A stretch of DNA of 64,000 nt from Verrucomicrobiota bacterium (GCA_027622555.1 JAQBYJ010000018.1:1-64000); one strand, 5' to 3'; shown: positions 3,326 through 20,579, counted from the first letter of the stretch. The notes: generated by a model from the letters alone, not told the origin. Numbers and translations: made by a program.

Positions 3326-3732
3326 ACGGAAAACATCTTTTGCAGTTCTTGTACAATCGGAATGTCCGCCGGAGCCCAGTTCAACTCATGTGCACGCTCC
3401 ACGTCTACCCAATCCATCGCAGAATGTTCGTGCAAAGTAATTTCCGGGATTTCATCACAGTTGGCCAAAAACGGCCACAAGCGAATCGTAGCAAAGCCAT
3501 AAACATGAGTTGTCTCTGTTAGGGCCTTCAACTCCCCCAACTCCAAATTCAACTCCTCCACAATCTCCCGCCTCAGCGCATCCTTAGCAGATTCACCCTC
3601 CTCAATCTTCCCACCCGGGAATTCCCAATACCCACCCAGAGAACTCCTCTCCGGCCGTTGTACCATAAACACCTGGTTTCTGGTATTCATCATCACAAGA
3701 CAACTCACTTCGATTATATTATCTTGTCTCAT
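3322..3732 (-). CDS. Nudix hydrolase, MutT-like (8-oxo-dGTP diphosphatase family)
   Basis: A 136-residue single-domain Nudix protein. The Nudix box is complete: G41, five residues, E47, seven residues, then REIVEE at 55-60, which supplies the Mg2+-binding glutamates. The length and the FPGGK lead-in match MutT-type (deoxy)nucleoside triphosphate pyrophosphohydrolases, which remove oxidised or non-canonical nucleotides. It is the first gene of a two-gene unit: its TGA overlaps the ATG of the helicase downstream. The exact nucleotide substrate cannot be told from sequence, so a role in pool cleaning or in a defence reaction with the helicase both remain possible. Confidence 0.88.
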   Translation of the reverse strand: MRQDNIIEVSCLVMMNTRNQVFMVQRPERSSLGGYWEFPGGKIEEGESAKDALRREIVEELNLELGELKALTETTHVYGFATIRLWPFLANCDEIPEITLHEHSAMDWVDVERAHELNWAPADIPIVQELQKMFSV

Positions 3733-4356
3733 CTACAATTTCAGAGATCGAGCATGCAAAATTCGTGCACGAAGAGCCCGAACGCAAAAAATAAACATCT
3801 GACCGTCACACGATTCGAGAGATTTGTTTTTAGAAGCAGTAGTTGCCATCAAGGGGAAATTGGGACGTCAGAATAAGACCTACAAGGTCTTAACTCATTA
3901 CAAATGATATCATTGAGGTCCGAGACGTGCAAAAGACGTCGCGTCGCGTGCAAAAGACGTCGGGTCTTGACTCTTGACAAAACGCTTCATTGGGGTCCGA
4001 AAAAAGCCGGCTAGGAACACTGGACTTTTTGAAGTTTGGAAATTCTATAATTTCGTGAAGGGGCTGCATTTGAATCGGGAATTGATTGATCAGATTAAAG
4101 CTGAATCCGGCGGAATGGGAAGGAGAAACTTTGGAAGGATGAAGGCTGATCCTACGTCGCCCTATCGGGCTATGCAGGACAAGATGGATGTTGGGGCCCA
4201 GTCGACTTGGTTTTTTCAAAACCCTGGTCGATACCTCCCAACCGCGTTTACCCGCTAAAGCAGGTAGCCCGCGTAAAAAGTTGAAGGTTTATTTTCCAAT
4301 CTACCGGGCTATGCTGGATAGGAGGTGGTGCATGTAGGCCGCTAATTCTTTTTGGA
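3733..4356. other. 624-bp gap with short repeats, no convincing gene
   Basis: Between the Nudix and ORF6N genes no reading frame looks coding. A frame on the plus strand (3974-4258) opens only with TTG and has no recognisable domain. The stretch contains a doubled GTGCAAAAGACGTCG motif at about 3927-3962, a repeated CATTGRGGTCCGA phrase flanking it, and a repeated CGGGCTATGC phrase near 4167 and 4306. This looks like decayed repeat or insertion-element DNA. Confidence 0.5.
3927..3962. repeat. Short tandem duplication (about 21-bp unit)
   Basis: The 15-mer GTGCAAAAGACGTCG occurs twice in tandem, with a unit of about 21 bp. It is followed by GGTCTTGACTCTTGAC, a phrase style also seen near 61.6 kb (TTGACCATTGACTATTGACC). 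Function unknown; likely part of a dispersed repeat. Confidence 0.5.
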
Positions 4357-4917
4357 TTATTTGCGCAGATACTTAGCTTTACACTCCTTGGCTTGGAATC
4401 CGATACGCTTCTTGGGATCATCCGAAGCGGGGGCAATAAGCGGGACCAGCTTCTGGTAAATATCCCAAAGCGTGTTGTCATGCTGGAGGAGGGTTTTCTC
4501 GGTCTCGGCCAGGCGTTTCAGGATGTGCTCGTTGCCCGACAGAAGTTCGCGCTGGCGAACGAAGGCCCGGAGGATGAACACACTCATTTTCACCGCCTCG
4601 TCAGAATTTAGAATCGTGGCCGCCATAAGGGTGCCGTGTTCTGTAAATACAAACGGCGGTTTTCGCCGTCCTCCGTGTCTACTTGATGTCACAGATTGTG
4701 ATATCAAGTTTCTAAACTCCTCATGGGTAAGCTGAAACGCAAATTCCTCAGGGAATCGTTTCAAGTTCCTCTTTACAGCTTGATTAAACACTCGCGTCTC
4801 AACTTCATACGCAAATGCCAGGTCACTATCCAACACAACCTGTAAGCCGCGAACGGTATAAATCGGAGGTTTGTTATAAACTTGAAAGGTCTGAGTAGGT
4901 TTTTTCTTGGTCGCCAT
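4357..4917 (-). CDS. ORF6N domain protein
   Basis: A 186-residue protein whose first 110 residues match the ORF6N DNA-binding domain: IYTVRG near the start, DLAFAYEVETRVFNQAVKRN, RFPEEFAFQLT, and the FTEHGTLMAATIL block. This domain is found in phage antirepressors and in chromosomal proteins of mobile-element origin, and is thought to bind DNA. The C-terminal 70 residues form a predicted helix that may mediate oligomerisation. The gene starts five bases after the stop of a broken nucleotidyltransferase gene on the same strand, so both may once have formed one unit. Target unknown. Confidence 0.85.
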   Translation of the reverse strand: MATKKKPTQTFQVYNKPPIYTVRGLQVVLDSDLAFAYEVETRVFNQAVKRNLKRFPEEFAFQLTHEEFRNLISQSVTSSRHGGRRKPPFVFTEHGTLMAATILNSDEAVKMSVFILRAFVRQRELLSGNEHILKRLAETEKTLLQHDNTLWDIYQKLVPLIAPASDDPKKRIGFQAKECKAKYLRK

Positions 4918-4921
4918 ATAA

Positions 4922-5140
4922 TTACTTCACCTCCTCGTAGAACAAGGGGCCGATTTTCTCCAGAAGAGAGCGGTAGAAATCAGCGTCCCTACTCGTAAAA
5001 GGCTGAAATGAAAAAATGCCAGAATCCAGGGAGCTGTATTTTTCTGCCCAAAGGTTTACGGCCTACCCTCCAACCAATATCAGCCCAGTCTCGGCATTCC
5101 GCAAATCAACGAAATCTTTAACTGTGAGGTTTCTTTCCAA
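4922..5140 (-). pseudogene. Nucleotidyltransferase fragment with in-frame TAG and 3' truncation
   Basis: Translating the minus strand from the TTG at 5138-5140 gives LTVKDFVDLRNAETGLILVGG, then TAG (5063-5065), then AVNLWAEKYSSLDSG and FTSRDADFYRSLLEKIGP before TAA at 4922. The phrases LVGGxAVNLW and TSRDADF are the N-terminal nucleotide-binding signature of small bacterial nucleotidyltransferases (AbiEii/DUF1814-like, MNT-type). Gln (CAG) is usual where TAG stands, so one C-to-T change would explain the stop. Family members normally run about 200 residues; here the frame ends after about 72 codons, so the 3' part is also gone. Both lesions argue for a dead gene. Confidence 0.6.
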
Positions 5141-5327
5141 CTGCGAGGGCTTCCCAATCAATTTCGGATTTGTCCCAGAAATCTTCGGGGAGTATGGAGT
5201 TCCGGCGCTGAAGGTCAGCCGGAGTCAACCGTTCGGACACTGTAGCCTTGGCGTCCAGTCGACGGGCATTCGTCCTCTTACGAGTGAATTCCTGATCGAT
5301 GTCCACAACTGGAGTATTTTTTGCCAT
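5118..5327 (-). CDS. Small ORF upstream of the broken nucleotidyltransferase
   Basis: A 69-residue frame starting MAKNTPVVDIDQEF and ending AVGKKPHS; an upstream in-frame ATG at 5402 would add 25 residues with no obvious role. It overlaps the start of the nucleotidyltransferase remnant by about 23 bases, an arrangement common for two-gene toxin-antitoxin or accessory pairs. The sequence is charged and small, with no domain I recognise. It may be the partner of the degraded nucleotidyltransferase; that is inference from position only. Confidence 0.45.
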   Translation of the reverse strand: MAKNTPVVDIDQEFTRKRTNARRLDAKATVSERLTPADLQRRNSILPEDFWDKSEIDWEALAVGKKPHS

Positions 5328-5506
5328 AGTCGTTAAACTACCATTATTACCTTCAAGGTCAAGAAGCTGGATAATCAGGGATTGGATGTCTGAGCTGAGC
5401 AAAAATCGTCTAAAAAGCGTTGGTTATTTACAGCTTGTAATGGGACATGTACCGAATGAAATGCCAGGAGCCCAGTGACGACAAGACCGGAATATGGGTT
5501 AAGACA

Positions 5507-6223
5507 TCAAAGCTTGGATGGCGTTTTGGTGGCCTTGGCGACAATCGGTTCTAATCCCGCGGCGCGATCCCGGGCGATGGCCTTTTCGGAGGCCCGCTTC
5601 AAGGCAGCTTCGGCTCCGACAAAATCCGGGTTGTTGAGCGGCTGCACACGACGGGCTTTCTTTTCTGACGCTTGGTAAGGAATTGAATCTTCCATGAGTT
5701 TTTCAGGGGGATGGTTTTCACCAGTTTCCAATAATTCCGGTGGTTGTAATGAACCATCGTAAATGGCCCACTCATCGACAATCTCCAAATAGTGCTTCCA
5801 CAAGTTATCCCAACCCCGCGCATAACGGCGACGGATCGTTGAAGCAGGAATATTGTGGCCTCCGTAACGGACACGCCGTTCGACTCGGCGAATGGCAAAT
5901 TCAGGATCGGGAAGTTTGAGAAAGTAGAGTTTTACCTGGTAACCGTCCTTCTGCCATCGCGGAATCATGCGTAGGTAGACTCGGGTGGAGAGAGTCGTTT
6001 CGAAAGCAAAGCTCTTGCCGTTGGCGGCGAGTTCTCCAATCCGTTTCAGCATCACCCGACCAGCTGCAATAGCCACGCCGTCCGGGTGAAACGGACTCAA
6101 TCCTGCGGCGATCAAATCCGCATTCACAAACTCATGGCAGTCGGCCTCCTGAGGAAGAAACTCCTCGGCGAAGGTTGTTTTCCCCGCCCCGTTGGGTCCG
6201 GCAATGATAAGGATCTTCTTCAT
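5507..6223 (-). CDS. Zeta-toxin-like P-loop kinase (COG4185-type)
   Basis: A 238-residue protein with Walker A GPNGAGKT at residues 9-16, FVNADLIAAGLSP, the GKSFAFETTLS block, and RRVERRVRYGGH followed by a basic helix. This order is that of the zeta-toxin/predicted ABC-type ATPase family (P-loop kinases related to UDP-N-acetylglucosamine kinases). The C-terminal 60 residues are Ala/Lys-rich and less conserved. It overlaps a 37-codon ORF just upstream by four bases (ATGA), the usual layout of a toxin preceded by a small antitoxin. Toxic activity is inferred; a housekeeping kinase role is possible. Confidence 0.85.
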   Translation of the reverse strand: MKKILIIAGPNGAGKTTFAEEFLPQEADCHEFVNADLIAAGLSPFHPDGVAIAAGRVMLKRIGELAANGKSFAFETTLSTRVYLRMIPRWQKDGYQVKLYFLKLPDPEFAIRRVERRVRYGGHNIPASTIRRRYARGWDNLWKHYLEIVDEWAIYDGSLQPPELLETGENHPPEKLMEDSIPYQASEKKARRVQPLNNPDFVGAEAALKRASEKAIARDRAAGLEPIVAKATKTPSKL

Positions 6224-6333: not shown

Positions 6334-6792
6334 TCAGTGGAAATGAAAGGTTAATTTTTAGACATCCAGGAAATTGGGGCAAGCGTTGAAATAGAAGGGT
6401 CTCACACGGAGGCAAAAGGAGCACAGAGCTGGAAAAAGGAGGAGTGGAGGCTGGATGGCGAAGTAAACTTCGTGCCGGGACCGCTAAGCCCCAGCTTGGC
6501 TTTATTTATTCAACTGCCGAGCTCGGGCTCAGCGTTCCCAGGGGGGTCGCGACTAAAGTTACTCCTACAAAAGGACGAAGGTGACTTTTTCTGTAGTGAA
6601 TCAGCCCAAAGAATTCTGTGCGGAAAGACCATAAGACCATCCACTCGCCAATGGGAATTCGTTGGATCCGGTAGCTCAGATTTTGACATTTTTCGAAATC
6701 ACACCCGGCTTTTCACCATTATCTATATTTCATTTGCCAAGCATGCTGCAATCTATTCTGTAGGAATTAAGTCTTCATTATCAGCTACCCAA
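6334..6792. other. Intergenic region upstream of nuoA
   Basis: About 460 bp between divergently oriented genes. An open frame runs through it into nuoA, but the NuoA family begins at 6793, so I treat this part as non-coding. It contains a REP-like piece (6545-6571) and is the expected place for the nuo promoter. A TTGACA hexamer lies at 6683-6688, but no good -10 box sits 16-18 bases downstream, so I do not call a promoter. Confidence 0.5.
6545..6571. repeat. REP-like element, family A (diverged)
   Basis: Reads GTCGCGACTAAAGTTACTCC then TACA, a diverged copy of the family A palindrome (GCGGCGTAAAGCCGCTCCTACA) found at 7238, 48244, 51636 and 52575. Confidence 0.45.
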
Positions 6793-7158
6793 ATGGACTC
6801 GCATTGGATTAATTACCTTACCCTGCTTGGATTCGCCATATTCGCGCTGATCATTGCCTGTACGCCTCTCCTGATTGCCAGGGTATTGAGTCCCCATAAG
6901 CCGAGTGACTTGAAACAGGCCACCTACGAGTGTGGGTTGGAATCCTCCGGGGAAGCCTGGGGAAAATTTAAAATGCAATACTACCTCTATGCGCTGGTCT
7001 TTGTGATATTCGATATCGAGGCGGTATTTATCTATCCCTGGGCCACCGCGTTTACCAGCATCGGCTTTGGCAGTTTTGTGGCCATGAGTGTGTTCATTTT
7101 AATCATGGCGGAGAGCCTTGTGTATCTCTGGTTGAAAGGATTTCTGGAATGGAAATAA
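6793..7158 (+). CDS. nuoA: NADH-quinone oxidoreductase subunit A
   Basis: 121 residues with three predicted membrane helices, the usual length for NuoA. The conserved YECGLES and FKMQYYLYALVFVIFDIE phrases are present in the family order; the FDIE acidic residues lie in the membrane near the quinone channel. NuoA sits at the joint between the peripheral and membrane arms of complex I. I chose ATG 6793 because the open frame extends 107 codons further upstream with no family similarity. First gene of a 12-gene nuo cluster; 118 bp separate it from nuoB. Confidence 0.95.
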   Translation: MDSHWINYLTLLGFAIFALIIACTPLLIARVLSPHKPSDLKQATYECGLESSGEAWGKFKMQYYLYALVFVIFDIEAVFIYPWATAFTSIGFGSFVAMSVFILIMAESLVYLWLKGFLEWK

Positions 7159-7276: not shown

Positions 7277-7927
7277 ATGAGCACCACCGAGGAAGAAGAG
7301 GTAGACCTATCACCGGAAGCGACAGCTAAGGCGGGCGTTATTCTGTCTTCCCTGGATTGGATCTACAACTGGAGCCGAAGTAATTCCGTGTGGCCATTGC
7401 AGTTTGGGTTGGCTTGTTGCGCCATCGAGATGATTGGGACGGCCGGTTCGCGCCACGATATTTCCCGGTTTGGAGCCGAGGTGTTTCGCCCGTCTCCCCG
7501 TCAATCGGACCTCATGCTCGTTTCAGGAACGGTCACCAAGAAGATGGCCCCTCAGGTAGTCCGAATCTATAATCAGATGCCGGAGCCGAAGTATGTGATC
7601 GCCATGGGTGCCTGCGCGATTTCCGGCGGTCCTTTCAAACAGGGCTACAATGTACTTAAAGGAATCGACCGTTACATCCCGGTCGATGTCTACCTGCCTG
7701 GCTGCCCTCCCCGTCCCGAAGCATTGCTCCATGCACTGATGACGCTTCAGGCTAAAATCAAAAAGGAGAAAAGCTTGGGGAAGCATATTACCAACCCGGC
7801 TTACAAGGAAGGAAAGCGCATTTATCCCGTGCCCGTGTTGACCGGGAACGATCTCGAGCCTCCCTACAATCACGAAGTCTGGACGCCTCCGGTAAAAAAC
7901 CCAAACATTGCGGACGCCTGCGAATAA
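7277..7927 (+). CDS. nuoB: NADH-quinone oxidoreductase subunit B
   Basis: 216 residues. The N2 [4Fe-4S] cluster ligands are visible: the tandem Cys of LACCAIEM, the Cys of GACAISGG and the Cys of [24 protein letters not shown] is the standard NuoB block. NuoB holds the terminal cluster that hands electrons to quinone. The C-terminus after ALMTLQ is about 55 residues and longer than in the E. coli protein. Its last base overlaps the nuoC start, so the two are coupled. Confidence 0.96.
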
Positions 7928-8514
7928 TGGAGATCAACCACGAAGCCATACTTCGGCATTTTCCAGATCTCGAGTGGGAGGAGGATACAAAGAGCCTCAT
8001 AGTCCCTCCCGAAAAGGTGACAGAGGTGGTTACCTGGTTAAAAGAACATCCGATGATGAAATTGGATTATCTGAGTTGTATTTCGGGGGTGGATTATATC
8101 GAAAGCGAGGTAAAGACCAAGGCCCGCAATGAAGAGGGAAAGATGGAGGTCATCATCACCAAAACGCCCGATAAGATGGAGGTCGTTTATCACCTTTTTT
8201 CCATGGAGAAAAAGATCGGCCCGCTGGTACTTAAACAGCGCGTCATGACTCGCGATAATCCGGTCGTCACTTCACTCACCCCTATTTATCGCGGAGCTGA
8301 GTTGATGGAACGCGAGATCTTCGACCTGTTTGGCATTCACTTTACCGGTCATCCGGATCTCCGCCGAATTCTCATGTGGGATGAGTTTGAGCATTATCCG
8401 ATGAGGAAAGATTACACTCCTCCCAACGATTACGACTACGAACCCACTCCCCACGATTCTGTCATCGAACGAGCAAAGGAACGACAAGAGGAATTGGAAA
8501 GGCAGAAGTCATGA
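7927..8514 (+). CDS. nuoC: NADH-quinone oxidoreductase subunit C (30 kDa)
   Basis: 195 residues. The family block [28 protein letters not shown] is split across residues about 120-145, followed by [14 protein letters not shown]. NuoC is a peripheral-arm scaffold subunit that packs against NuoD and NuoB. It is a separate gene here, not the NuoCD fusion of enterobacteria. It overlaps nuoB by one base and nuoD by four bases (ATGA). Confidence 0.95.
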
Positions 8515-9662
8515 GCGTGATCGAAACCATGCCAGCCCGGGGTTACAGTGTGAGCAAAGACGACCTCGGATCCGATATCCTCGAGATTGCCATGGGGCCG
8601 CATCACCCGTCCACTCATGGGGTCTTTCGCATGGACCTGAAACTCGACGGGGAAACCGTCATGGATCTGAAGCCCATTTTTGGTTACCTTCATCGGAACC
8701 ATGAAAAACTTGCCGAAGACATGACCTACCCGATGTCCATGCCCTTTACCGATCGTCTCGATTACCTTTGTGGCATGACGAACAACTGGGCCTACGCTCT
8801 CAGCTGTGAGAAGCTTATAGAAATTGAAGTTCCCGAACGTGCGGAATACATCCGCGTCATTGTCGCTGAGCTTACCCGTTTGGTGAACCACTGCCTCCTG
8901 GTAGGATTCTTTATCAACGACCTCGGTGCGCTCGGCACTCCCCTGCTCTACGCACTGCGCGAACGGGAAAAGATCCTCGACCTGTTCGAAACGCTTTCCG
9001 GTGCAAGAATGATGGTTAACTATTTTCGCTTTGGTGGTGTGCGTTGCGATCTACCCGAAGGCTGGCTGACGGAATGTAAACGAATCGTCGATGCCTTCCC
9101 GGCCTTCCTCGATGAATACGAAACCTTGTTGGTGGGAAACGAAATCGTGATCACCCGGGCCCAGAACGTGGGCGTGGTGACGAAGGAGGAAGCGGTCAAT
9201 TTCTCCCTCACCGGTCCTATGCTCCGCGCCAGTGGCGTGAACTACGACATCCGCAAAGTTGACAAATACGGCATCTACGACCGCTTCGACTTCAAAGTCC
9301 CACTCGGCGCCCACGGCGATTGTTATGATCGTTTCATGATCCGTATGCTCGAAATGCGGGAGAGTATCAAAATCCTTAACCAGGCACTCAAAGATATTCC
9401 CGAAGGTGAAATAATGGGAGACGCGCCCAAGATCTTTAAACCCGCACCGGGAGAAGCCTATGGCCGAATCGAATCACCCAAGGGAGAGCTGGGGTTCTAC
9501 CTCATAGCGGACGGAACCAACAATCCCTACCGGTTCAAAGTTCGTCCTCCTTCATTCATAAACCTTACTGCCCTGCGCCACATGTGCATAGGGCACAAAG
9601 TTGCCGACGCTGTCATCATTCTTGGCAGTATCGATATCGTCCTGGGAGAAGTCGACCGCTAG
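8511..9662 (+). CDS. nuoD: NADH-quinone oxidoreductase subunit D (49 kDa)
   Basis: 383 residues, within the usual NuoD range. It begins with [12 protein letters not shown] and contains [29 protein letters not shown] and [15 protein letters not shown], all diagnostic of the 49-kDa subunit that forms the quinone site with NuoB. The His of HPSTHG lines the quinone pocket. The C-terminus ends DIVLGEVDR, as usual. Followed by a repeat-filled gap before nuoI. Confidence 0.96.
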
Positions 9663-9689: not shown

Positions 9690-9817
9690 GGTAGGGCGGT
9701 CTCGCCGAGACCGCCGACGTATGCCTCTTGTACTATCTCACATTCACAGATGCTCAACGGACCGATCGGCGACGGGTCCAGCGAAGTTATCAAACGAAGC
9801 TGGGATCGGCCCCTACC
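9690..9817. repeat. Family B palindromic repeat in the nuoD-nuoI gap
   Basis: Begins GGTAGGGCGGTCTCGCCGAG with ACCGCCG completing a hairpin, and ends CGGCCCCTACC. The inner segment holds a second palindrome (GGACCGATCGGCGACGGGTCC). The same architecture recurs at 12658-12751 between nuoJ and nuoK. The element contains in-frame codons upstream of nuoI, which makes the nuoI reading frame look longer than it is. Confidence 0.65.
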
Positions 9818-9839
9818 TTTTAACCGAATATTACGATCT

Positions 9840-10742
9840 ATGAGTTTATTCGCAAAAGGCATCATCCAGGGGATGGGCGTAACGGCCAAAAACTTTTTCC
9901 AGAGCTATTACAAAAAAGATCGGCTTCCGACTGTGGAATATCCGGAAGAGAAATCTACCGTTACGCAGTTTTCCAGAAACATACCTTTTCTGGTATTTGA
10001 TGGTGAGGACGCCATCGATGGGATGCGCTGTACCGCTTGCACACTGTGTGAAAAAGCCTGCCCGCCGGCCTGTATCTACATCATCAAGGACAAGGACGAA
10101 AACGGGAGACCGCTTAAACGTCCTGCGGTGTTCGACATCGATTCTTCAGTTTGCATGAGTTGCCAGCTTTGTGTCGAAGCCTGCCCATTTGAAGCTATCC
10201 GGATGGATAGCGAATTCGAACTTTCCACCGAAAACCGTTTCGAAGGGTTGCTGATCAATCGCGAAGCACTCCTCAAATCGAACAAATACTACCACGAAAT
10301 TCACCCCATCGAAGCCCAGGTAACCGACGACCGCATGGCCGCCAAAGTTGCCGAAGCCGAAGCAAAAGCAAAGGAACGGGAAGAAAAAGCCCGCCTGGAT
10401 GCCGAAGCCAAAAAAGCAGCGGAAGAAAAGAAGGCTGCCGAAGAAGCTGCCGCAGTTGCCGAAGCACCCGTAGTCGAAGAAGTAACTGAAGTTGCCCCGG
10501 AGGAACCAACGGCAGAAGCGTCAACAGAAACAGCCGAATCCACAGAACCTGCCGAATCCACAGAAACTCCGAAAGCGGTCGCAGAGGAATCAACAGAAGC
10601 TCCCCAGGAACCAACAGCGGAAACAACCGAAGTTCAGGAAGAACCCAAATCAGTCGCCGCAGAACCTCCTCCTGCAGTTGCCGAAGAAAAGCCCAAGTTA
10701 GCAGAACCCGAAAACTCCGAAGAACCGAAAAAACCAGAATGA
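9840..10742 (+). CDS. nuoI: NADH-quinone oxidoreductase subunit I with long acidic C-terminal tail
   Basis: 300 residues; the family is usually about 150-220. Two 4Fe-4S motifs are complete: C64-C67-C70-C74 and C105-C108-C111-C115, ligating clusters N6a and N6b. After about residue 165 the protein becomes a low-complexity Ala/Glu/Lys, then Glu/Pro/Thr-rich tail of about 135 residues with no similarity to NuoI. The first part of the tail is a likely charged helix, the rest disordered. I chose ATG 9840, since upstream in-frame codons lie in a dispersed repeat. Confidence 0.93.
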   Translation: MSLFAKGIIQGMGVTAKNFFQSYYKKDRLPTVEYPEEKSTVTQFSRNIPFLVFDGEDAIDGMRCTACTLCEKACPPACIYIIKDKDENGRPLKRPAVFDIDSSVCMSCQLCVEACPFEAIRMDSEFELSTENRFEGLLINREALLKSNKYYHEIHPIEAQVTDDRMAAKVAEAEAKAKEREEKARLDAEAKKAAEEKKAAEEAAAVAEAPVVEEVTEVAPEEPTAEASTETAESTEPAESTETPKAVAEESTEAPQEPTAETTEVQEEPKSVAAEPPPAVAEEKPKLAEPENSEEPKKPE

Positions 10743-10893: not shown

Positions 10894-12117
10894 ATGAATA
10901 ACTTTTTTGATCACAAACTTCTAGAGCTCGCCCAATGGGTGGAGTCTCTTTTCAACGATATGCCTTCGTTGAAGATTGTGGTTCATATTGTCTTGTCCTC
11001 CCTGCCTCTGATCCTCGCATTCATGGGTGCGTTCGCTTTTTCCACTTGGCTTGAACGTAAGGGGCTCGCCCGGATTCAAAACCGCCCCGGCCCGAATCGG
11101 GTTGGGATCTTTGGGTTACTTCAACCGGTAGCGGACGGCATCAAAATGCTGTTCAAGGAAGACATCGTTCCAGAAAGATCGGACAAATTATTTCATTTCA
11201 TGGCACCAGTATTATTGATGGTGCCGGCCATGGTAGGCATCGGATTTTTACCCATGGGCGAGGGAATGAGTGCCCTACCCTTTGACTCGGCTATTCTATT
11301 TTTCTTTGCGATCGGATCGATGAATACCATTGCCGTCTTCATGGCTGGTTGGTCATCGCGCAATAAGTATTCCTTGCTCGGAGGCATGCGCGCCGTGGCG
11401 CAAATGATCAGTTACGAAATCCCGCTGGTGCTATCCGCTGTGACGGTTATCATGATTGCCGGTTCACTCAACGCTCAGGAGATTGTCGCTTCTCAACAGA
11501 TCACCGGATGGATCGGAAGTGGAAATATAATCCAGGAGTTCTTTGGGCAGATACTCGGTTGGCATATTTTTAAACCATGGGGATTCGCCGGATTTATCTT
11601 TTTCTTTATCGCAGCACTGGCCGAGGCCAACCGCTCGCCTTTCGATTTACCGGAAGCCGATTCGGAAATCATCGCCGGTCACCTGACCGAATACAGTGGT
11701 TTCAAATACGCCATTTTCTTTATCGCTGAGTACATTAGCGCCTTCGCGATTGCCGGGATAGCGGTCACCTTATTCCTTGGCGGTTGGAGCGGACCGGTTA
11801 TAGCTGGATTACCGTGGTTTATCATAAAACTGTTTAGTCTCTTCGCGGTAATGATCTGGATACGCGGCACCTTGCCCCGGTTACGAGTCGACCAGTTAAT
11901 GGCCTACGCCTGGAAATTCCTGATGCCGTTAGCCATCCTCAATATATTCGTTGCCGGTCTCTACTACTTCGCCGAACAACAATGGGGCATCTGGATTGCC
12001 CTGGTCGGGGGATGGATAGTTGGATTCGGAGCATTACAGTTGGCAGCTAAAGGACTGGCCCGACTCAACAAATCTCCCCTCTTAAAAGACAAAAGGGTCT
12101 ACCAATTTGCGGAATGA
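10894..12117 (+). CDS. nuoH: NADH-quinone oxidoreductase subunit H
   Basis: 407 residues with about eight membrane helices. The family landmarks NRPGPNRVG, LQPVADGIKMLFKED, EANRSPFDLPEADSEI and TEYSGFKYAIFFIAEY are all present; the acidic loop of the third is part of the quinone chamber and first proton path. NuoH anchors the membrane arm to the peripheral arm. The N-terminal 30 residues precede the first helix and are longer than in E. coli. It overlaps nuoJ by four bases. Confidence 0.96.
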   Translation: MNNFFDHKLLELAQWVESLFNDMPSLKIVVHIVLSSLPLILAFMGAFAFSTWLERKGLARIQNRPGPNRVGIFGLLQPVADGIKMLFKEDIVPERSDKLFHFMAPVLLMVPAMVGIGFLPMGEGMSALPFDSAILFFFAIGSMNTIAVFMAGWSSRNKYSLLGGMRAVAQMISYEIPLVLSAVTVIMIAGSLNAQEIVASQQITGWIGSGNIIQEFFGQILGWHIFKPWGFAGFIFFFIAALAEANRSPFDLPEADSEIIAGHLTEYSGFKYAIFFIAEYISAFAIAGIAVTLFLGGWSGPVIAGLPWFIIKLFSLFAVMIWIRGTLPRLRVDQLMAYAWKFLMPLAILNIFVAGLYYFAEQQWGIWIALVGGWIVGFGALQLAAKGLARLNKSPLLKDKRVYQFAE

Positions 12118-12632
12118 GTATCGCATTTTTCATATTGGCAATTGTTGCGATCATGGGCGCCGTTTTGGCGATCACTTTACGCAATGTAATTCACGCCGTA
12201 TTTTCAGTACTGTTGTTTTTCTCTGCAATTGCAGGACTGTTTCTTCTGCTACTGGCAGAGTTTGTTGCTGCAGTGCAAGTGCTGGTATACATCGGCTCGG
12301 TCGGCATTCTAATGCTCTTCGCCATCATGCTCACGACTAAGGTTATGGGTGACGCAACCAGCACGGTCCATTCCCGCGGATGGATCTGGGGAGGAATAGC
12401 CGTTGCAGCTTTGTTACTTGGAGTATTTATTCCGCTCATCTCCCAGCCGATTGCGGAAGCCACGACCCTACTTTCGGATTTCGAACCCTCCGTCAAACAA
12501 CTTGGACTTGTTTTGATGGATCCCTACTTCGCCTCCGTGGGCGTCATCGCTTTGCTACTTACGGCCGGACTTATCGGAGCCGTGGTGGCAGCAAGCAGCG
12601 CGAGTGAACCTGAACCCGAACAAAAAACGTGA
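12114..12632 (+). CDS. nuoJ: NADH-quinone oxidoreductase subunit J
   Basis: 172 residues with five predicted helices. The phrases RNVIHAVFSVLLFFSAIAGLF (in part) and VYIGSVGILMLFAIML are standard for NuoJ; its third helix carries the pi-bulge implicated in coupling. The C-terminal tail is short and acidic. It overlaps nuoH by ATGA. A family B repeat of about 95 bp fills the gap to nuoK. Confidence 0.95.
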   Translation: MSIAFFILAIVAIMGAVLAITLRNVIHAVFSVLLFFSAIAGLFLLLLAEFVAAVQVLVYIGSVGILMLFAIMLTTKVMGDATSTVHSRGWIWGGIAVAALLLGVFIPLISQPIAEATTLLSDFEPSVKQLGLVLMDPYFASVGVIALLLTAGLIGAVVAASSASEPEPEQKT

Positions 12633-12765: not shown

Positions 12766-13080
12766 GTGGAGCTAACTCTAAATCATTTCCTGATACTCTC
12801 AGCCATCCTCTTCTCGATAGGTTTGGTGGGCGCGCTGACGCGTCGGCATATCATAATCATGCTGATCTGTCTGGAAATCATGCTCAATGCGGGGAACCTC
12901 AACCTGATTGCGTTTTGGTACTATAGTCCAAACCCAGACCTCATGCACGGGCCCCTCTTTACACTTTTCACGATCGCGATCGCAGCCACGGAAGCCGCCC
13001 TTGGGCTGGCACTGGTTCTCGCTATCTTCCGCCACTTTAAAACCATCGACCTGGAGCAAATTCAGGACCTGAAAGAATGA
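12766..13080 (+). CDS. nuoK: NADH-quinone oxidoreductase subunit K
   Basis: 104 residues, three membrane helices, the usual NuoK size. The membrane glutamates that carry protons are visible in ICLEIMLNAGNL and in IAATEAALGLAL. The start codon is GTG at 12766; no ATG is available at the right place. The C-terminal 15 residues are hydrophilic. It overlaps nuoL by four bases. Confidence 0.95.
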   Translation: MELTLNHFLILSAILFSIGLVGALTRRHIIIMLICLEIMLNAGNLNLIAFWYYSPNPDLMHGPLFTLFTIAIAATEAALGLALVLAIFRHFKTIDLEQIQDLKE

Positions 13081-15083
13081 ACCTATTCGATTTTTCTCAT
13101 TCCGTTGGATGGCTGTTGTGGATTCCCCTTTGTCCACTGATAGCCGGAGTATTGCTGGGCTTTTTCAAACCTTCAGGTAAACTGTCTGCGATCATCGCCA
13201 TCGCCGCACTAACGGCCTCCTTGGGATTTTCGCTCAAAGCTTTTGCAATGACCGGGGGGCATGAAGCCCACACCCTCACTCACAATTTTACCTGGATTCA
13301 GATCGCGGGCGTGAACCTCGAATTCGGAGTAGTCCTCAATGCACTGACCGGATCGATGTTGGCGATGGTCAGTTTCATTGGCCTCTTAATCTTTATCTAT
13401 TCAGCCAGTTACATGAGCCATGACGCCCGCATGGGACGGTTCTTTTGCTACCTCTCTATTTTCATGGTGGGTATGCTTGGGCTGGTAGTCTCGAATTCTT
13501 TGTTACTGCTCTTCATGTTCTGGGAGATTGTCGGGCTCGCCTCTTATTTATTGATCGGGTTCTGGTTTGAAAAACCATCGGCTGCGGCCGCTGCGAAAAA
13601 AGCATTTATCACCACCCGGATTGGCGATCTGGGATTCCTCATTGGATTGCTCTGGGCGTTCAAGGCGACCGGTACCTTTCTATTCTTCGACGGAGGAAAT
13701 GGACTCCTTGAAGGCGCACAAATCGCCGCACTGGTTGCTTCCGAGAACGCGCTTGGGGGATTAAATGGTGCGGGTGTAATTGCGTTGTTCCTCTTCATCG
13801 GTGCGGTTGGAAAATCGGGTCAACTTCCACTACACGTGTGGCTACCCGATGCGATGGAAGGCCCTACTCCGGTATCGGCTTTGATCCACGCGGCAACCAT
13901 GGTGGCAGCTGGCGTATTCCTGGTAGCCCGCGCATTTCCACTTTTCCTCGCAGACGAGGTGATGCTTGAAATCGTTTCCTGGGTCGGTGCATTTACCGCA
14001 CTGTTCGCTGCTCTCATTGCCGTTGCGCAATACGACATCAAACGGATTCTCGCCTACTCGACGGTCAGTCAACTTGGCTTGATGATGGTAGGGCTCGGTG
14101 CCGGTGGATTGGCCCTTGGAGAAGGGGGCGTATCGATCGGTATGTTTCACCTCCTTACTCACGCATTCTTTAAGGCCTTACTCTTCCTCGGTGCCGGCTC
14201 GATCATTCACGGTTGTGGCGAGGAGCAGGATATCCGTCTCATGGGTGGTGTGTTTAGCAAAATGAAAGTATCGAGTATTGCTTACCTGGCCGGCACGCTC
14301 GCTCTTTGCGCATTTCCCTTCACCAGTGGATTTTTTAGTAAGGACCAAATCCTGCTCAGTGCCTGGACAACGAACTCCACCGTTTTCTGGATCAGTGCAT
14401 TCGCTTCCTTGCTCACGGCGTTCTACATGACGCGGCAATGCTGCTACGTATTCCTGGGTAAATACCGCGGCAAAGGTCATGTCCATGAAAGCCCGGCATT
14501 GATGACTGTTCCATTGGTGATACTCGCCGCATTCGCTCTCTTGCTCGGAGTCATCAGTGAAAATAAATTCCACGTGCTCGACTATCTTTCAGGTGTCCAC
14601 GTTCACCAGCATGAAACCATCGTGGTCGTTATCAGTGTAATAATTGCCCTGGGTGGAATCGGACTTGGTTTGCTTGTTTACGCTCGAGCCAAAATGGGCA
14701 TGGATATTGTCGATCCAGTCAAGCGCGCCATTGGGGCTCCTTACTCGTGGTTGGAAAAACGTTTATTGGCCGATGAACTGTACGAAGCCACGGTATTCAA
14801 ACTTTGGAACGCTCTGGCGATTAACATTACCGCGATTGAAGCGATCCTGAATGTCCTGGTCGATGCCCTCACAGCAGTGGTGGTGAGTATTGGCAATTTC
14901 TTCTCCAACACCGTCGACCAAAAATTAATCGACTCTGTCTCCTTCGATGGCACCTGCGCTCGCATTTACAAAAGCAGCAGGATCAACGCATTTATTCAAA
15001 ACGGATTCCTTCAGGGATATCTCCGGATTCTCACCGCGGGCACCGTCGTAATCGGTGTTCTTTTCCTGGTCTTTGCCCGATGA
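13077..15083 (+). CDS. nuoL: NADH-quinone oxidoreductase subunit L, enlarged C-terminal lateral helix
   Basis: 668 residues (E. coli NuoL is 613). The antiporter-like core is intact: the TM5 Glu in FMFWEIVGLASYLLIGFW, the lysine of GKSGQLPLHVWLPDAMEGPTP, and the HAATMVAAGV helix. In the C-terminal lateral-helix region, DELY (from residue 566) and DQKLID (from residue 614) are 48 residues apart, against roughly 22 in ordinary NuoL proteins as I recall them. The extra residues are hydrophobic or helical (residues about 580-610). An extended lateral helix would be needed to span a second NuoM. Confidence 0.95.
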   Translation: MNLFDFSHSVGWLLWIPLCPLIAGVLLGFFKPSGKLSAIIAIAALTASLGFSLKAFAMTGGHEAHTLTHNFTWIQIAGVNLEFGVVLNALTGSMLAMVSFIGLLIFIYSASYMSHDARMGRFFCYLSIFMVGMLGLVVSNSLLLLFMFWEIVGLASYLLIGFWFEKPSAAAAAKKAFITTRIGDLGFLIGLLWAFKATGTFLFFDGGNGLLEGAQIAALVASENALGGLNGAGVIALFLFIGAVGKSGQLPLHVWLPDAMEGPTPVSALIHAATMVAAGVFLVARAFPLFLADEVMLEIVSWVGAFTALFAALIAVAQYDIKRILAYSTVSQLGLMMVGLGAGGLALGEGGVSIGMFHLLTHAFFKALLFLGAGSIIHGCGEEQDIRLMGGVFSKMKVSSIAYLAGTLALCAFPFTSGFFSKDQILLSAWTTNSTVFWISAFASLLTAFYMTRQCCYVFLGKYRGKGHVHESPALMTVPLVILAAFALLLGVISENKFHVLDYLSGVHVHQHETIVVVISVIIALGGIGLGLLVYARAKMGMDIVDPVKRAIGAPYSWLEKRLLADELYEATVFKLWNALAINITAIEAILNVLVDALTAVVVSIGNFFSNTVDQKLIDSVSFDGTCARIYKSSRINAFIQNGFLQGYLRILTAGTVVIGVLFLVFAR

Positions 15084-15096
15084 GAGGACGTATTCA

Positions 15097-16593
15097 ATGA
15101 TTAGCATTATCACATTTTTCCCGCTACTGGCAGCCCTCGCGATTGTCCTGACGCCGGGCAATAATAAGGGCTTCATAAAGCTTCTTGCTTTGATAGGTGC
15201 GTTGGCTTCTTCCATTCTGGCGATTTCATTGGCGCTTCAATTTGTTCCTGGTGACGGACTTCAGTTTGTACAAAAGTACGCGTGGATACCGTCGATCGGC
15301 GTGGATTACTTTGTTGGTATCGATGGATTGAATATGCTGCTGGTTATTCTGGTGGCCATCCTCTCACCTATCTTCGTACTCGCCTCCTGGAAGATGGATG
15401 AAAAGGCAAAGACCTACTTCAGTCTTCTGTCCGTTCAAATCACCGCGCTTTACGGCGCATTTACCGCACTCAACTTTTTCCACTGGTTTATCTTTTGGGA
15501 AGCAGCTCTGGTACCGGCGTTTTTCCTTATCAAACTCTATGGAGGTAAAGGAAGGCACAAAGCGGCAATTAACTTCTTTGTATTCACCGTACTCGGGTCG
15601 GTGGCAATGTTGCTGGGGGTGGTTTTCCTCTACCTGAAAACCGGCACCTTTGACTTTATCGAACTCCGCCAATTGGCCAGCCAAGGATTAATCCAAGTAA
15701 AACTCGGCGGACTTTATCCCGTAATCTTTGTTGCGATCGCCCTCGGACTTTGGGTGAAAGTTCCACTCTTCCCACTGCATATGTGGCAGGCACCTGCCTA
15801 TGCTGAGGCACCCGTTCCGGTAAGCATGATACTTACCGGGATAATGTCGAAGATGGGGGTATACGGATTTCTCCGTTTGGTGGTTCCGGTTTTCCCAGAA
15901 GCGATTCGAGAATTTTCAGAAGTATTACTGACCATTGCTTTGGTAACGATTATCTGGGGTGCATTTCTTGCCTTGCGCCAAACAGACATCAAACGCGTGC
16001 TCGCCTACTCATCCTTAAACCACGTGGCCTACTGCATGTTCGGTATATTTGCAGTCGGTGCGGCGATGGGACCTGATAAGATAAACGCTCCGGCAATAGC
16101 CATGCAGGGAGTCATCCTGCAAATGTTTGCCCACGGAATTGGAGCTGCCGGTCTCTTTTATATAGCCGGCAAATTAGAGGACATCAGTGGCACACGTGAC
16201 ATACGAGAATTCGGCGGACTGGGTGCCGTGATGCCGAGGTATGCATTTGTATTTTGCTTCCTGGTGTTTTCGTCCCTGGGACTTCCGTTTCTGGCCGGGT
16301 TCGCCGCGGAGATTCTCGTCTTCTCTGGAGCTTTCGCTCTGGCTCCCTTTCATACCGTATTTGCACTACTGGCACTTTTGGCCACGGCTATTTTTCTCCT
16401 CACCATCATTCAACGGATCTTCACCGGAAAAGCAGGTGAGGCAAAAAGCAGTCTCCCCGATATCTCCTACCGCGAAGTGCTTTATATTTCACCTCTGCTG
16501 GTGCTGACCGTCTGGATCGGAGTGTCGCCCTCCACCTGGTTGGCTTTCAGTGATCCATTTATTCAAACGCTCACCACGCTTTTTATTCCGTAA
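15097..16593 (+). CDS. nuoM: NADH-quinone oxidoreductase subunit M, first copy
   Basis: 498 residues with about 14 helices. All antiporter residues expected of NuoM are present: Glu in FWEAALVPAFFLI, Lys in WVKVPLFPLHMWQ, Lys in TGIMSKMGVYG and Glu in GFAAEILVFSG. I chose ATG 15097, preceded by GAGAGG, because the 14 upstream in-frame codons overlap the end of nuoL. Its TAA is directly followed by the ATG of the second nuoM with no spacer. Confidence 0.94.
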   Translation: MISIITFFPLLAALAIVLTPGNNKGFIKLLALIGALASSILAISLALQFVPGDGLQFVQKYAWIPSIGVDYFVGIDGLNMLLVILVAILSPIFVLASWKMDEKAKTYFSLLSVQITALYGAFTALNFFHWFIFWEAALVPAFFLIKLYGGKGRHKAAINFFVFTVLGSVAMLLGVVFLYLKTGTFDFIELRQLASQGLIQVKLGGLYPVIFVAIALGLWVKVPLFPLHMWQAPAYAEAPVPVSMILTGIMSKMGVYGFLRLVVPVFPEAIREFSEVLLTIALVTIIWGAFLALRQTDIKRVLAYSSLNHVAYCMFGIFAVGAAMGPDKINAPAIAMQGVILQMFAHGIGAAGLFYIAGKLEDISGTRDIREFGGLGAVMPRYAFVFCFLVFSSLGLPFLAGFAAEILVFSGAFALAPFHTVFALLALLATAIFLLTIIQRIFTGKAGEAKSSLPDISYREVLYISPLLVLTVWIGVSPSTWLAFSDPFIQTLTTLFIP

Positions 16594-18081
16594 ATGATTG
16601 CACTACTCACAGTCATTTTAAGTTTTCTAGGCGCCGCCATAATCGGTTTCGTCCCGAGTAAAAACATTAGGCTGATCCGCTCATTGGCTCTCTTTACCGC
16701 TCTGGGAACTTTCGCCGCCGCGGTGCAATGTTACTTTGAATATCTCGATCGGTCCGGTGAAGTATTTCAGCAAATGATTGATCTGACCTGGATTCCTGCG
16801 ATTGGGGCCACGTTCAAGATCGGCGTCGATGGGCTCAGTATCAGCCTACTCGTTTTGACCGGAATCATTGCGGTTTGCGGGGTGTTGTTTTCCTGGACCA
16901 TAGAGGATCGGGCGAACCAGTTTTTCGCCTACTACTTCGCGCTTATTGGAGGCGTATTCGGAGTCTTCCTATCACTCGATTTGTTCCTGCTCTTTGTCTT
17001 CTACGAAATCGCCATTGTCCCCAAGTATTTCATAATCGCCATTTGGGGTAGCGGTGAAAAGGCCTACGCGGCCATGAAGCTGGTGTTGTTTTCTTTTGTA
17101 GGTTCCGCAGTGGCATTGCTGGGATTAATCGCGCTTTATTTCGGATCCGGATTACAGACGTTCGACCTTATCCAGCTGATGGCTGAAGGAGAATTCTCAT
17201 CCCAATTTCAGCTGGTGGTCTTCCCGATCTTGTTTATCGGTTTCGGAATTCTCGCAGGCATGTGGCCATTCCATACCTGGGCACCCACCGGTCACGTGGC
17301 CGCACCTACCGCGGCCTCCATGCTTTTGGCCGGAGTCGTGATGAAGCTCGGCGCTTACGGTTGTTTGCGAGTCGCCATCGGGTTGCTACCGGAAGGAGCT
17401 ATTTATTGGGCACCCATCGTCGCTTGGATCGCAGTCATCAATATCGTTTACGGCGCGCTGATCGCTCTCGTGCAGAAAGATTTTAAATTCGTCATCGGGT
17501 ATTCCAGCGTAAGTCACATGGGGTTTGTCCTGCTCGGACTCGCCACGCTAAATGAAGTGGGACTCATGGGAGCATCCCTCCAAATGTTTTCCCACGGCAT
17601 CATCGGTGCCCTGCTCTTCGCCATTGTTGGCACGGTCATTTACTCACGCACGCATACACGCCAACTTGACCATTTCCACAACCTCATGCAACGGATGCCT
17701 GGAATCTGCTGGGTATTTATTGTGGCTGGACTTGCTTCCATGGGGCTCCCCGGATTCAGCGGATTCGTCTCGGAGTTGCACGTGTTAATTGGCACCTGGA
17801 ATCAGGATCAATTTTCGATCTGGATCATTATTTTGGCAGGTTTCGGCATTCTTGCGACCTTTACCTATACCCTGGTTAAGATTCATGAAGCCTTCTTCCG
17901 CTCATCACCTGCGCATAACCCGAATGAAGTCTATGCGCCGATGACTATCCCTGAGAAATTGGGTTGCGGGATATTGTTGTCATTCGCATTGGCGATCGGG
18001 ATTTATCCGAACCTGCTCACTGTTATCCTTGAACCCAGTTTGGCACCGATTTTGGAGGCGCTGGCAACTGCAGCAAAATAG
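16594..18081 (+). CDS. nuoM: NADH-quinone oxidoreductase subunit M, second copy, TM7 lysine replaced
   Basis: 495 residues, homologous in full to the first NuoM but clearly diverged, so not a recent duplication. Glu of FYEIAIVPKYFII, Lys of AGVVMKLGAYG and Glu of GFVSELHVLIG are kept. The lysine normally found two residues before the PL-PH motif in helix 7 is Leu220 here (GFGILAGMWPFHTW). This residue is central to proton transfer in antiporter-like subunits. With NuoL enlarged, the cluster fits the two-NuoM (2M) form of complex I. Confidence 0.92.
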   Translation: MIALLTVILSFLGAAIIGFVPSKNIRLIRSLALFTALGTFAAAVQCYFEYLDRSGEVFQQMIDLTWIPAIGATFKIGVDGLSISLLVLTGIIAVCGVLFSWTIEDRANQFFAYYFALIGGVFGVFLSLDLFLLFVFYEIAIVPKYFIIAIWGSGEKAYAAMKLVLFSFVGSAVALLGLIALYFGSGLQTFDLIQLMAEGEFSSQFQLVVFPILFIGFGILAGMWPFHTWAPTGHVAAPTAASMLLAGVVMKLGAYGCLRVAIGLLPEGAIYWAPIVAWIAVINIVYGALIALVQKDFKFVIGYSSVSHMGFVLLGLATLNEVGLMGASLQMFSHGIIGALLFAIVGTVIYSRTHTRQLDHFHNLMQRMPGICWVFIVAGLASMGLPGFSGFVSELHVLIGTWNQDQFSIWIIILAGFGILATFTYTLVKIHEAFFRSSPAHNPNEVYAPMTIPEKLGCGILLSFALAIGIYPNLLTVILEPSLAPILEALATAAK

Positions 18082-18090
18082 AATTCTGAA

Positions 18091-19575
18091 ATGAGCTACT
18101 TACATTTATTACAAACTATGTTTCCCGACCTCCTTGTGGTTCTGGTCATGTTTGTAGCACTCGGGTTCGACTATACCAAATACAAAAACCTCGGCCGACA
18201 GACCCGAAGCAACAAAGCGGCAATGATTTCCTCGATCGCGCTACTCCTGGGACTTGCCGGTGTCCTTGGGCAATTCAGTTCAGCTTGCTGCGCAACCGCC
18301 ACCCCGACGACTTATGATGGCCAGCTGGTTTTAACACCGCTTACTCTGGGATTCAAAGCACTGGTATTTGCGCTGGCGCTTTTCGTCATCCAATTCGCGA
18401 AGCCTCAAGTTCCCAATAAACACGTCAGCGAATATTTTAGCCTGATTTTGCTCAGCACCTTGGGCATGGGTTTCCTGATCACGGCTCAAAACCTGATCAT
18501 GTTTTTTGTTTCGATAGAACTGATATCCCTCAGTCTCTACGGACTAACGGCCTTTCAAAATGATAAAAGATATTCTGTCGAAGCGGGCATCAAATACTTT
18601 GCCATCGGTGGAGTATCCTCGGCCTTTTTGCTCTTTGGAATCAGCTACCTCTATGGTGCCACCCACGCACTTAATTTCGACGGTATCGCAAGTGCTATCG
18701 AAACAGCGCCTTCCAGTTACCTGCTGATAGCGTCGCTCTGCCTTGTGGTGGGGCTCGGTTTTAAAATCGCCGCCGCACCCTTCCATCTGTGGGCACCCGA
18801 TACCTACCAATGTGCGCCTGTTCCGGTAGCAGCCTGGATTGCTACCGGCTCCAAGATCGCGAGCTTCTTTGTATTAATCCAACTCTTTGGACCGATCCTC
18901 GAATCTTCAGTGGACCGCGATACCCTCATCAAAGGTCTGGTTATTGTATCAGTCCTCAGCATGGTTCTTGGCAACATAGGTGCCTTGCGCCAATCCTGTG
19001 TTAAGCGATTGCTTGCCTACTCAAGCGTCGCGCATGCCGGTTACATGCTCATCGGTCTCATTGCGGCGAACAAGGACGGCCAGGTTTCCATGCTCTATTA
19101 TATCGTCATTTACTCGTTCGCCACACTTGGAGCTTTTGCGGTTATTGGTATCATCAACAATCGACTGGGACGCGAAGCCTATATTTCCGATTTCAACGGC
19201 TGCTGGAAACAGAATCCAAGACTCAGCCTGCTATTCTTGATTTTCATTCTGTCTTTGGCTGGCATTCCTCCCTTATCTGGATTCGTCGGGAAACTATATC
19301 TCTTTATGGCAGCGATTGGCTCACAGCCGGAAATCGCCAGTTGGTCGGATGGCTATTATTGGCTGATCGCGGTGGCGCTCCTGATGTCTGCGGTATCCTT
19401 GTATTACTACGTCAAAGTTCTGAAAGCATTTCTCGTATCGAACGATACACCTGGCTTGCCAAAACTTACCATCGGTAAGGCCGAAGGTTGGGGGCTTATC
19501 ATTCTGGCCATCCTGGTAGTCGGATTGGGGATCTATCCAACGGGATTGATAGAGTTTATCAGTAGCTCGCTTTGA
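18091..19575 (+). CDS. nuoN: NADH-quinone oxidoreductase subunit N
   Basis: 494 residues, about 14 helices. NuoN landmarks: Glu in FFVSIELISLSLYGL, Lys in GLGFKIAAAPFHLWAPDTY, and a second Lys in TGSKIASFF. It is the last gene of the cluster, nine bases after nuoM2. Downstream is a short gap with a weak hairpin (AGAAT-CTTT-ATTCT near 19623), followed by a gene on the opposite strand. No nuoE, nuoF or nuoG is found on either side. Confidence 0.95.
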   Translation: MSYLHLLQTMFPDLLVVLVMFVALGFDYTKYKNLGRQTRSNKAAMISSIALLLGLAGVLGQFSSACCATATPTTYDGQLVLTPLTLGFKALVFALALFVIQFAKPQVPNKHVSEYFSLILLSTLGMGFLITAQNLIMFFVSIELISLSLYGLTAFQNDKRYSVEAGIKYFAIGGVSSAFLLFGISYLYGATHALNFDGIASAIETAPSSYLLIASLCLVVGLGFKIAAAPFHLWAPDTYQCAPVPVAAWIATGSKIASFFVLIQLFGPILESSVDRDTLIKGLVIVSVLSMVLGNIGALRQSCVKRLLAYSSVAHAGYMLIGLIAANKDGQVSMLYYIVIYSFATLGAFAVIGIINNRLGREAYISDFNGCWKQNPRLSLLFLIFILSLAGIPPLSGFVGKLYLFMAAIGSQPEIASWSDGYYWLIAVALLMSAVSLYYYVKVLKAFLVSNDTPGLPKLTIGKAEGWGLIILAILVVGLGIYPTGLIEFISSSL

Positions 19576-19733: not shown

Positions 19734-20579
19734 CTAAGGAGCCTCTTCCGGTTCGACGAACCCATAATCAGCAGGACCAAACCCCGGTACGCTGATAAAT
19801 TCATCCCAATCACGTTCACCTCGACGACCACGCCCAAAACGTGAGGTCCAATGTTTACTTTCTAAGTCTTCGTGGAATCCGCTCGTGTTCTTTTCAGCCA
19901 GATCAAACAGGTTCCACTGAGAGCCCCGATTACCTTCGATACTGAATGAACCCCGCTCATCAAAAATGTAATTCCCAGGACCAAGCTCCTGCCCCATGAG
20001 TTGCCCCCAGACTCTTGCCTCGCGTTTGGACAAGCAGCGACCATTTACGTAGAGACGTGAATCGCCCCTGGAAACATTTGATTGGAGAGGACCGTAGTCG
20101 TGCCCTTTCCGCATGTAACCAAACGCATCGTATCCAATCGCACCGTACAGGCCGCTGTTTGGATCATACCAATAGCTTCCCGGTCGAGGATAACGTTGGT
20201 ATTGCTTAAAAAAATCCTCGAGTTGTCTCCGGCTAAGAATCTGGCCGTTAAAGATAACCGTCTGCTCACCTGCCAAGGTCGATTGCACGTAGTTGGCCGC
20301 AGCTGAAGAGGTTTCACCTTGAAGGGTCAACACATAGGTACGCGCCGTCGATTGATCGATCAAGGCACCCCAAGTCATGCCAACCAATGTGAGCTCCAGA
20401 TAGGGACCGTCTTGAAACATGGTGATATGAAGAGGCTTTCCGAGAATGGTGCCGACCAACAGACCGTCTTCCAACTTACAGGCTACCTGATGAACTTCAC
20501 CTTCCCCACGAAATGTCCCCGAGTATACCCCCTGATCTTCACTAAGGGTGATGAGCATGCCATCCTCGTTATCTGGCAC
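19734..20579 (-). CDS. Exported protein of unknown function with two NG-x-LS / PGxY repeats, 5' end missing
   Basis: The central part carries two copies of a motif: FNGQILSRRQLE with PRPGSYWYDPNSGLYG, and VNGRCLSKREAR with LGPGNYIFDERGSFSIEG. I know this pattern from secreted hypothetical proteins of unknown function. The frame continues upstream of the GTG at 20579 through a clear signal-peptide core (SFFASLFFLAGAILNFGQA, 20598-20654). No ATG, GTG or TTG exists upstream before the stop at 20775. The real start therefore seems lost at a junction near 20660, or is non-canonical. The C-terminus is Arg/Gly/Asp-rich. Confidence 0.7.
   Translation of the reverse strand: MPDNEDGMLITLSEDQGVYSGTFRGEGEVHQVACKLEDGLLVGTILGKPLHITMFQDGPYLELTLVGMTWGALIDQSTARTYVLTLQGETSSAAANYVQSTLAGEQTVIFNGQILSRRQLEDFFKQYQRYPRPGSYWYDPNSGLYGAIGYDAFGYMRKGHDYGPLQSNVSRGDSRLYVNGRCLSKREARVWGQLMGQELGPGNYIFDERGSFSIEGNRGSQWNLFDLAEKNTSGFHEDLESKHWTSRFGRGRRGERDWDEFISVPGFGPADYGFVEPEEAP

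Follow-up and report, generated by a model that had tools for sequence, protein, structure and literature searches.

Whether a second nuoM gene adds a proton pump to complex I is the question raised by a gene cluster in a 64,000-nucleotide stretch of DNA from a Verrucomicrobiota bacterium, hereafter called the window. Complex I with two NuoM subunits (2M complex I), reportedly described by Chadwick et al. 2018 (ISME J, doi 10.1038/s41396-018-0210-1), is cited as possibly pumping five protons per two electrons, and so it could drive reverse ferredoxin reduction in slow-growing autotrophs.

The host is an Opitutales-like member of the Verrucomicrobiota with a genome of 6.0 Mb (95.8% complete), in which the window lies on contig C18. 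The nearest relative found, an Opitutales metagenome bin (locus L009), has a NuoL 76% identical to that of the window. Between 6.8 and 19.6 kb, the window carries nuoA, B, C, D, I, H, J, K, L, M, M and N, all in one direction (Table 1). nuoD is followed directly by nuoI and nuoH, nuoEFG being absent from the cluster. An alternative GTG start of the first nuoM, at 15055, overlaps nuoL.

Table 1. Coordinates of the nuo genes and of the NuoL lateral helix in the window, with the basis of each assignment
Feature	Coordinates	Strand	Basis and remarks
nuoA	6793..7158	+	121 aa; NCBIfam NuoA models match residues 113-228 of the mechanical ORF starting at 6472; homology from near 6808, in-frame ATG at 6793
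nuoB	7277..7927	+	TIGR01957 NuoB, 236.9 bits
nuoC	7927..8514	+	TIGR01961 NuoC, 109 bits
nuoD	8511..9662	+	TIGR01962 NuoD, 468 bits, above cut-off
nuoI	9750..10742	+	TIGR01971 NuoI, 85 bits, residues 57-172; additional Glu/Ala/Pro/Thr-rich C-terminal tail
nuoH	10894..12117	+	NF004741 NuoH, 326 bits, above cut-off
nuoJ	12114..12632	+	Gene order and homology common to 2M loci
nuoK	12766..13080	+	Gene order and homology common to 2M loci
nuoL	13077..15083	+	668 aa, lengthened lateral helix; NF005141 NuoL, 596 bits, above cut-off; alignment
NuoL lateral helix	14760..14990	+	Residues 562-638, including about 26 extra near 590-616
nuoM-1 (K-type)	15097..16593	+	498 aa, ATG start; E135, K221 (TM7 Lys kept), K252, E405; trees
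nuoM-2 (lysine-less type)	16594..18081	+	495 aa; E138, L220 replacing TM7 Lys, K251, E394; trees
nuoN	18091..19575	+	TIGR01770 NuoN, 370 bits, above cut-off; TM5/7/8/12 charged residues kept

NuoI ends in a tail (10310-10742) that is enriched in Glu, Ala, Pro and Thr and well over 100 residues long; the NuoI ORF of L009 has only 223 aa and is without it. In L009 (293-15516), an ordinary nuoL-M-N series lies directly upstream of the 2M cluster, the two operons being neighbors. On the minus strand of the window, genes at 188-6223 code for a PLD-helicase-DUF3427 protein (1045 aa), a NUDIX protein and an ORF6N protein, with a zeta-toxin-like kinase adjoining, a group that is possibly a defense or mobile island. 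A 281-aa ORF with no Pfam match is found just 3′ of nuoN (19734-20579, minus strand).

The earlier note on this DNA had described the two adjacent nuoM genes as diverged. Their products were found to be 29.9% identical, and with the NuoM model TIGR01972 they scored 426 and 448 bits, both above the curated cut-off of 263.8. Alignment to E. coli NuoM indicated that Glu144, Lys234, Lys265 and Glu407 are kept in NuoM-1 (E135, K221, K252 and E405 in the window). NuoM-2 keeps Glu144, Lys265 and Glu407, and has Leu220 at the position of Lys234, the lysine of TM7. The alignment around Leu220 is gapless and held by a PFHTW motif, and no Lys, Arg or His was found at any other position of the NuoM-2 TM7 helix.

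The same arrangement was observed in related clusters. All two-NuoM loci of the first set (36/36) had the residues EKKE in the first NuoM and ELKE (once ELNE) in the second; Verrucomicrobiota clusters analyzed later showed the same pattern (6/6), and those of Nitrospirota had EKKE followed by EIKE (7/7). Overall, the NuoM adjoining NuoL carries the TM7 lysine and the second NuoM Leu or Ile at that position in 49/49 2M clusters of Verrucomicrobiota/Acidobacteriota, Chloroflexota and Nitrospirota, a sample skewed to relatives of the window, as loci (mostly metagenome bins) were mostly found by similarity to its NuoL, and in which many clusters are close kin and independent events far fewer than 49. 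The missing lysine was unexpected. It is essential in E. coli, where mutation of the TM7 lysine of NuoM (K234) leads to loss of function (PMC3046159). Literature searches on the lysine returned no match, and the papers matching K234, judged from their titles and abstracts, dealt with complex I in general or with formate hydrogenlyase. The TM7-lysine pattern, and the insert origin and long-helix one-nuoM clusters described below, are additions, part of which may be known already. Further class-specific positions correspond to 244, 247, 250, 313 and 316 of E. coli NuoM. The charged set is reduced further still in a Gemmatimonas-titled record (L064), whose sole NuoM has Trp where the TM7 lysine would be and Asn for that of TM8.

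In the NuoM tree, all lysine-less NuoM formed one clade with a support of 100/100. It contains NuoM-2 of the window with all other second NuoM, from the three groups, as well as the sole NuoM of ordinary short-helix complexes, including the one encoded on contig C49 of the same genome. The second NuoM of Nitrospirota side with those of one-NuoM complexes within this clade, apart from the Verrucomicrobiota copies, and the K-type partners belong to different K lineages, NuoM-1 of the window to a Verrucomicrobiota/Acidobacteriota group and that of Nitrospirota to a separate one. The simplest reading of these placements is that the K-type and lysine-less pairing was assembled more than once. The lysine-less clade is ancient, and it also supplies sole NuoM; thus, the pair is no recent duplication, and an "extra proton" is not assured.

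The adjacency of the two genes is what a recent local duplication of nuoM would produce, or what would be seen if a Mrp/hydrogenase subunit had been mis-called NuoM. However, the two are 30% identical, orthologues exist for each of them separately (74-80% identity to L009), the two NuoM classes part deep in the tree, and neither copy joins Mrp, which forms the outgroup. A Mrp/hydrogenase origin of the second NuoM is excluded by the profile scores and the trees, and a recent tandem duplication by the low identity and the deep, separate clades, so that we give this explanation next to no weight.

The lack of the TM7 lysine in NuoM-2 makes a fifth pumped proton, or more ions per electron pair as the earlier note had expected, doubtful. 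NuoM-2 may be present in the complex without pumping in the usual way, acting as a spacer or as a charge relay between NuoM-1 and NuoN, with a proton yield close to that of ordinary complex I. The presence of Leu or Ile at the lysine position in the second NuoM of 49/49 two-NuoM clusters argues for such a role, as do the loss of function of E. coli NuoM mutants of this lysine (PMC3046159) and the observation that the lysine-less class has no visible compensating charged residue. Nevertheless, the TM5 Glu, the TM12 Glu and usually the TM8 Lys are kept, and many Verrucomicrobiota, the host with its other cluster among them, have an ordinary complex I whose only NuoM is lysine-less, so that this type must work somehow. 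A spacer or relay is thus quite possible, if short of probable. A more general reading, to which we give somewhat less than even odds, is that every 2M complex pairs a lysine-bearing NuoM with a lysine-less NuoM of an ancient clade, in a combination assembled more than once, and that the fourth subunit would be no ordinary extra pump, either moving protons without the lysine or serving as spacer or relay. If the added subunit does lack a residue needed for pumping in E. coli, the energy bookkeeping of 2M complexes is in doubt. A NuoM class that naturally lacks the TM7 lysine also offers a route to the role of this residue in complex I.

The second feature of the cluster is its NuoL, of 668 aa, which had been credited with about 26 extra residues between DELY (566) and DQKLID (614). 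Both motifs were found at these positions. The alignment with E. coli NuoL bore out an insertion in the lateral helix: the segment from DELY to QGY is 83 aa long in the window, versus 57 in the ordinary NuoL of the same genome (C49) and 53 in E. coli. Twenty complete one-NuoM loci had segments of 56-58 aa, relative to which the window has 26 more residues, and all complete loci with this short helix had one NuoM (20/20). Every related two-NuoM locus of the genome collection with a complete L-M-M-N series had a segment of 82-85 aa (34 by automatic count, plus L077, added by hand, whose first NuoM is in an overlapping open frame), and the two-NuoM clusters obtained later had 82 aa each in 6/6 other Verrucomicrobiota genomes and 7/7 Nitrospirota. 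AF2 models, built from family alignments, gave a lateral helix of 77 aa for the window (562-638, one kink at 622, with a pLDDT of about 45-55 over its last part) and of 51 aa for a one-NuoM comparator (L068, 567-617). At 1.5 Å per residue, 26 residues correspond to about 39 Å of helix. The NuoL helix is therefore truly longer, by an amount that agrees with published 2M complexes (PMC9040806).

The earlier note had ascribed the longer helix to the extra subunit. This holds in one direction, every 2M cluster having the long helix. However, about 14 complete clusters combine a segment of 82-85 aa with one adjacent nuoM, always of the K-type. Their hosts include Omnitrophota, Zixibacteria, Armatimonadota, Coatesbacteria, Ignavibacteria, Elusimicrobia, Chloroflexota and others, and no second nuoM above the cut-off was found in the whole assemblies of five such genomes (bins, completeness not given). 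A comparable anomaly was reported for Ca. Manganitrophaceae (PMC9040806). Thus, the long helix alone is no proof of a 2M complex: it is present in every 2M cluster examined, yet it is not diagnostic, and these clusters rule it out as a sure sign of two NuoM. As a companion reading, the complex that they encode could contain its single type of NuoM twice. In locus L051 (8920-10917), nuoL is of the 2M type up to about alignment column 320, where it changes sharply to the ordinary type; its helix is short, and a single lysine-less NuoM is encoded downstream. Either recombination between two nuo operons or misassembly accounts for this chimera, because of which L051 was dropped as a candidate natural revertant (a 2M-type cluster with a short helix and one NuoM).

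When each long helix was compared with itself, the score peaked at a shift of 26 residues, and hence the insert seems to have arisen by tandem duplication of a single helix unit of this length. The mean best 18-residue self-score was +35 for long-helix one-NuoM loci, +8 for two-NuoM loci and -12 for short-helix loci. Shuffling of single sequences gave p values of 0.0005-0.001 in the four long-helix one-NuoM loci tested and of 0.007-0.02 in Nitrospirota; in L041, for example, WVDQKLVDGTVNLVGIITIILARVHQ is followed by LFDTYIVDGCVNLVGTVTRQMGFALR. The window NuoL itself had no detectable tandem-duplication signal (shuffle p = 0.78), the 26-residue duplication being clear in relatives and eroded in the window. 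Grouping of all long-helix NuoL in one clade was rejected by an AU test (p = 0.002) on a NuoL core tree built without the helix, which is weakly resolved and contains long branches. This result agrees with the convergent origin proposed in the literature, although losses would fit too.

These data also bear on whether the two NuoM might be alternatives, either one joining a three-pump complex according to conditions, with no four-pump complex being formed. Both genes are full length and diverged, and the lysine-less NuoM serves alone in other complexes, as this explanation would have it. However, it leaves unexplained why a helix longer by 26 aa goes with every two-NuoM cluster in three phylum-level groups, an association that, given the AU test against a single long-helix clade, either recurs or is retained against loss. 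We consider it unlikely. The gene order, the 83-aa segment, the modeled helices of 77 versus 51 residues and the NuoM trees all match the published 2M type and support the proposal of a complex I with two NuoM and a longer lateral helix. We therefore identify the window cluster, with a probability of roughly 0.85, as a 2M-type complex I, a known kind, here in an Opitutales-like member of the Verrucomicrobiota. The trait is patchy within this phylum: in a sample of 145 Verrucomicrobiota genomes with a completeness of at least 90%, an orthologue of NuoM-1 at E < 1e-100 was present in only seven apart from the window, and the six of these clusters that were read all had two NuoM (6/6).

Analyses of the DNA around the loci revealed no nuoEFG homologues in or beside the window cluster, nor in the two-NuoM clusters of its clade. 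The same genome has a separate 14-subunit-type nuo cluster with nuoEFG (C49), and POR/KOR-type homologues that would yield reduced ferredoxin. The combination of these features makes ferredoxin the likeliest donor, and it is probably the one used by the 2M complex of the window; NuoF homologues elsewhere in the genome make a shared NADH module conceivable, which counts against a ferredoxin-only view. At G000:C19 (L094, 5610-9993), the gene for a fused NuoE/NuoF-like protein precedes that for a formate-dehydrogenase-like protein of 906 aa, the N-terminus of which is NuoG-like; together they may encode an NAD-linked formate dehydrogenase.

We infer that both NuoM are part of one complex, which would comprise the eleven core subunits and a fourth antiporter-like subunit, with no NuoEFG from the cluster. 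NuoL would form the distal end of the membrane arm, its amphipathic lateral helix spanning the two NuoM and anchoring at NuoN. Reduced ferredoxin would deliver electrons through NuoI and NuoB to quinone with concomitant proton pumping, and the reverse reaction would be possible. NuoM-1 would contribute the full Glu-TM5/Lys-TM7/Lys-TM8/Glu-TM12 set, and NuoM-2, from the ancient clade without the TM7 lysine, might itself pump protons. Such an enzyme could draw extra energy from ferredoxin oxidation, or reduce ferredoxin when driven backwards, as proposed for the 2M complex of Nitrospira (PMC6606698).

Among known systems, a second NuoM and a lengthened NuoL are common to published 2M complexes (PMC9040806, PMC6606698); nuoM is duplicated in Acidobacterium (PMC11636273), and the order LM1M2N occurs in Chloroflexi (PMC7117926). 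No structure paper on a 2M complex was among the matches listed in the literature search. The window cluster shares with this type the NuoL-NuoM-NuoM-NuoN order, the insertion of about 26 aa in the lateral helix, the lack of a complete NADH module and a second, ordinary nuo cluster alongside. It differs in its Opitutales-like host and in the low-complexity tail of NuoI, which is missing from the nearest relative, and it has NuoH, unlike the Nitrospira-clade 2M complexes (PMC6606698). The ordinary 14-subunit complex I, as encoded on C49 or in E. coli, has homologous core subunits, and the NuoM of C49 is also lysine-less, but there is one NuoM, the NuoL segment is 53-57 aa long and nuoEFG, which the window cluster lacks, are present. 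The NDH-1 of cyanobacteria and chloroplasts is an eleven-subunit, ferredoxin-dependent complex without NuoEFG. It resembles the window complex in having core subunits only and no NADH module, and differs by a single NdhD (NuoM) per complex and by extra Ndh subunits of its own. Verrucomicrobiota loci L101, L102, L103, L106 and L107 combine two NuoL/MrpD-like genes with those for a K-type NuoM and for NuoN, and resemble the rhizobial "green" complex I. The latter and Complex_I_3 of Ca. Manganitrophaceae (PMC9040806) have, like the window complex, more than three antiporter-like subunits, but in them two MrpD-like subunits replace NuoL, whereas the window has a single true NuoL.
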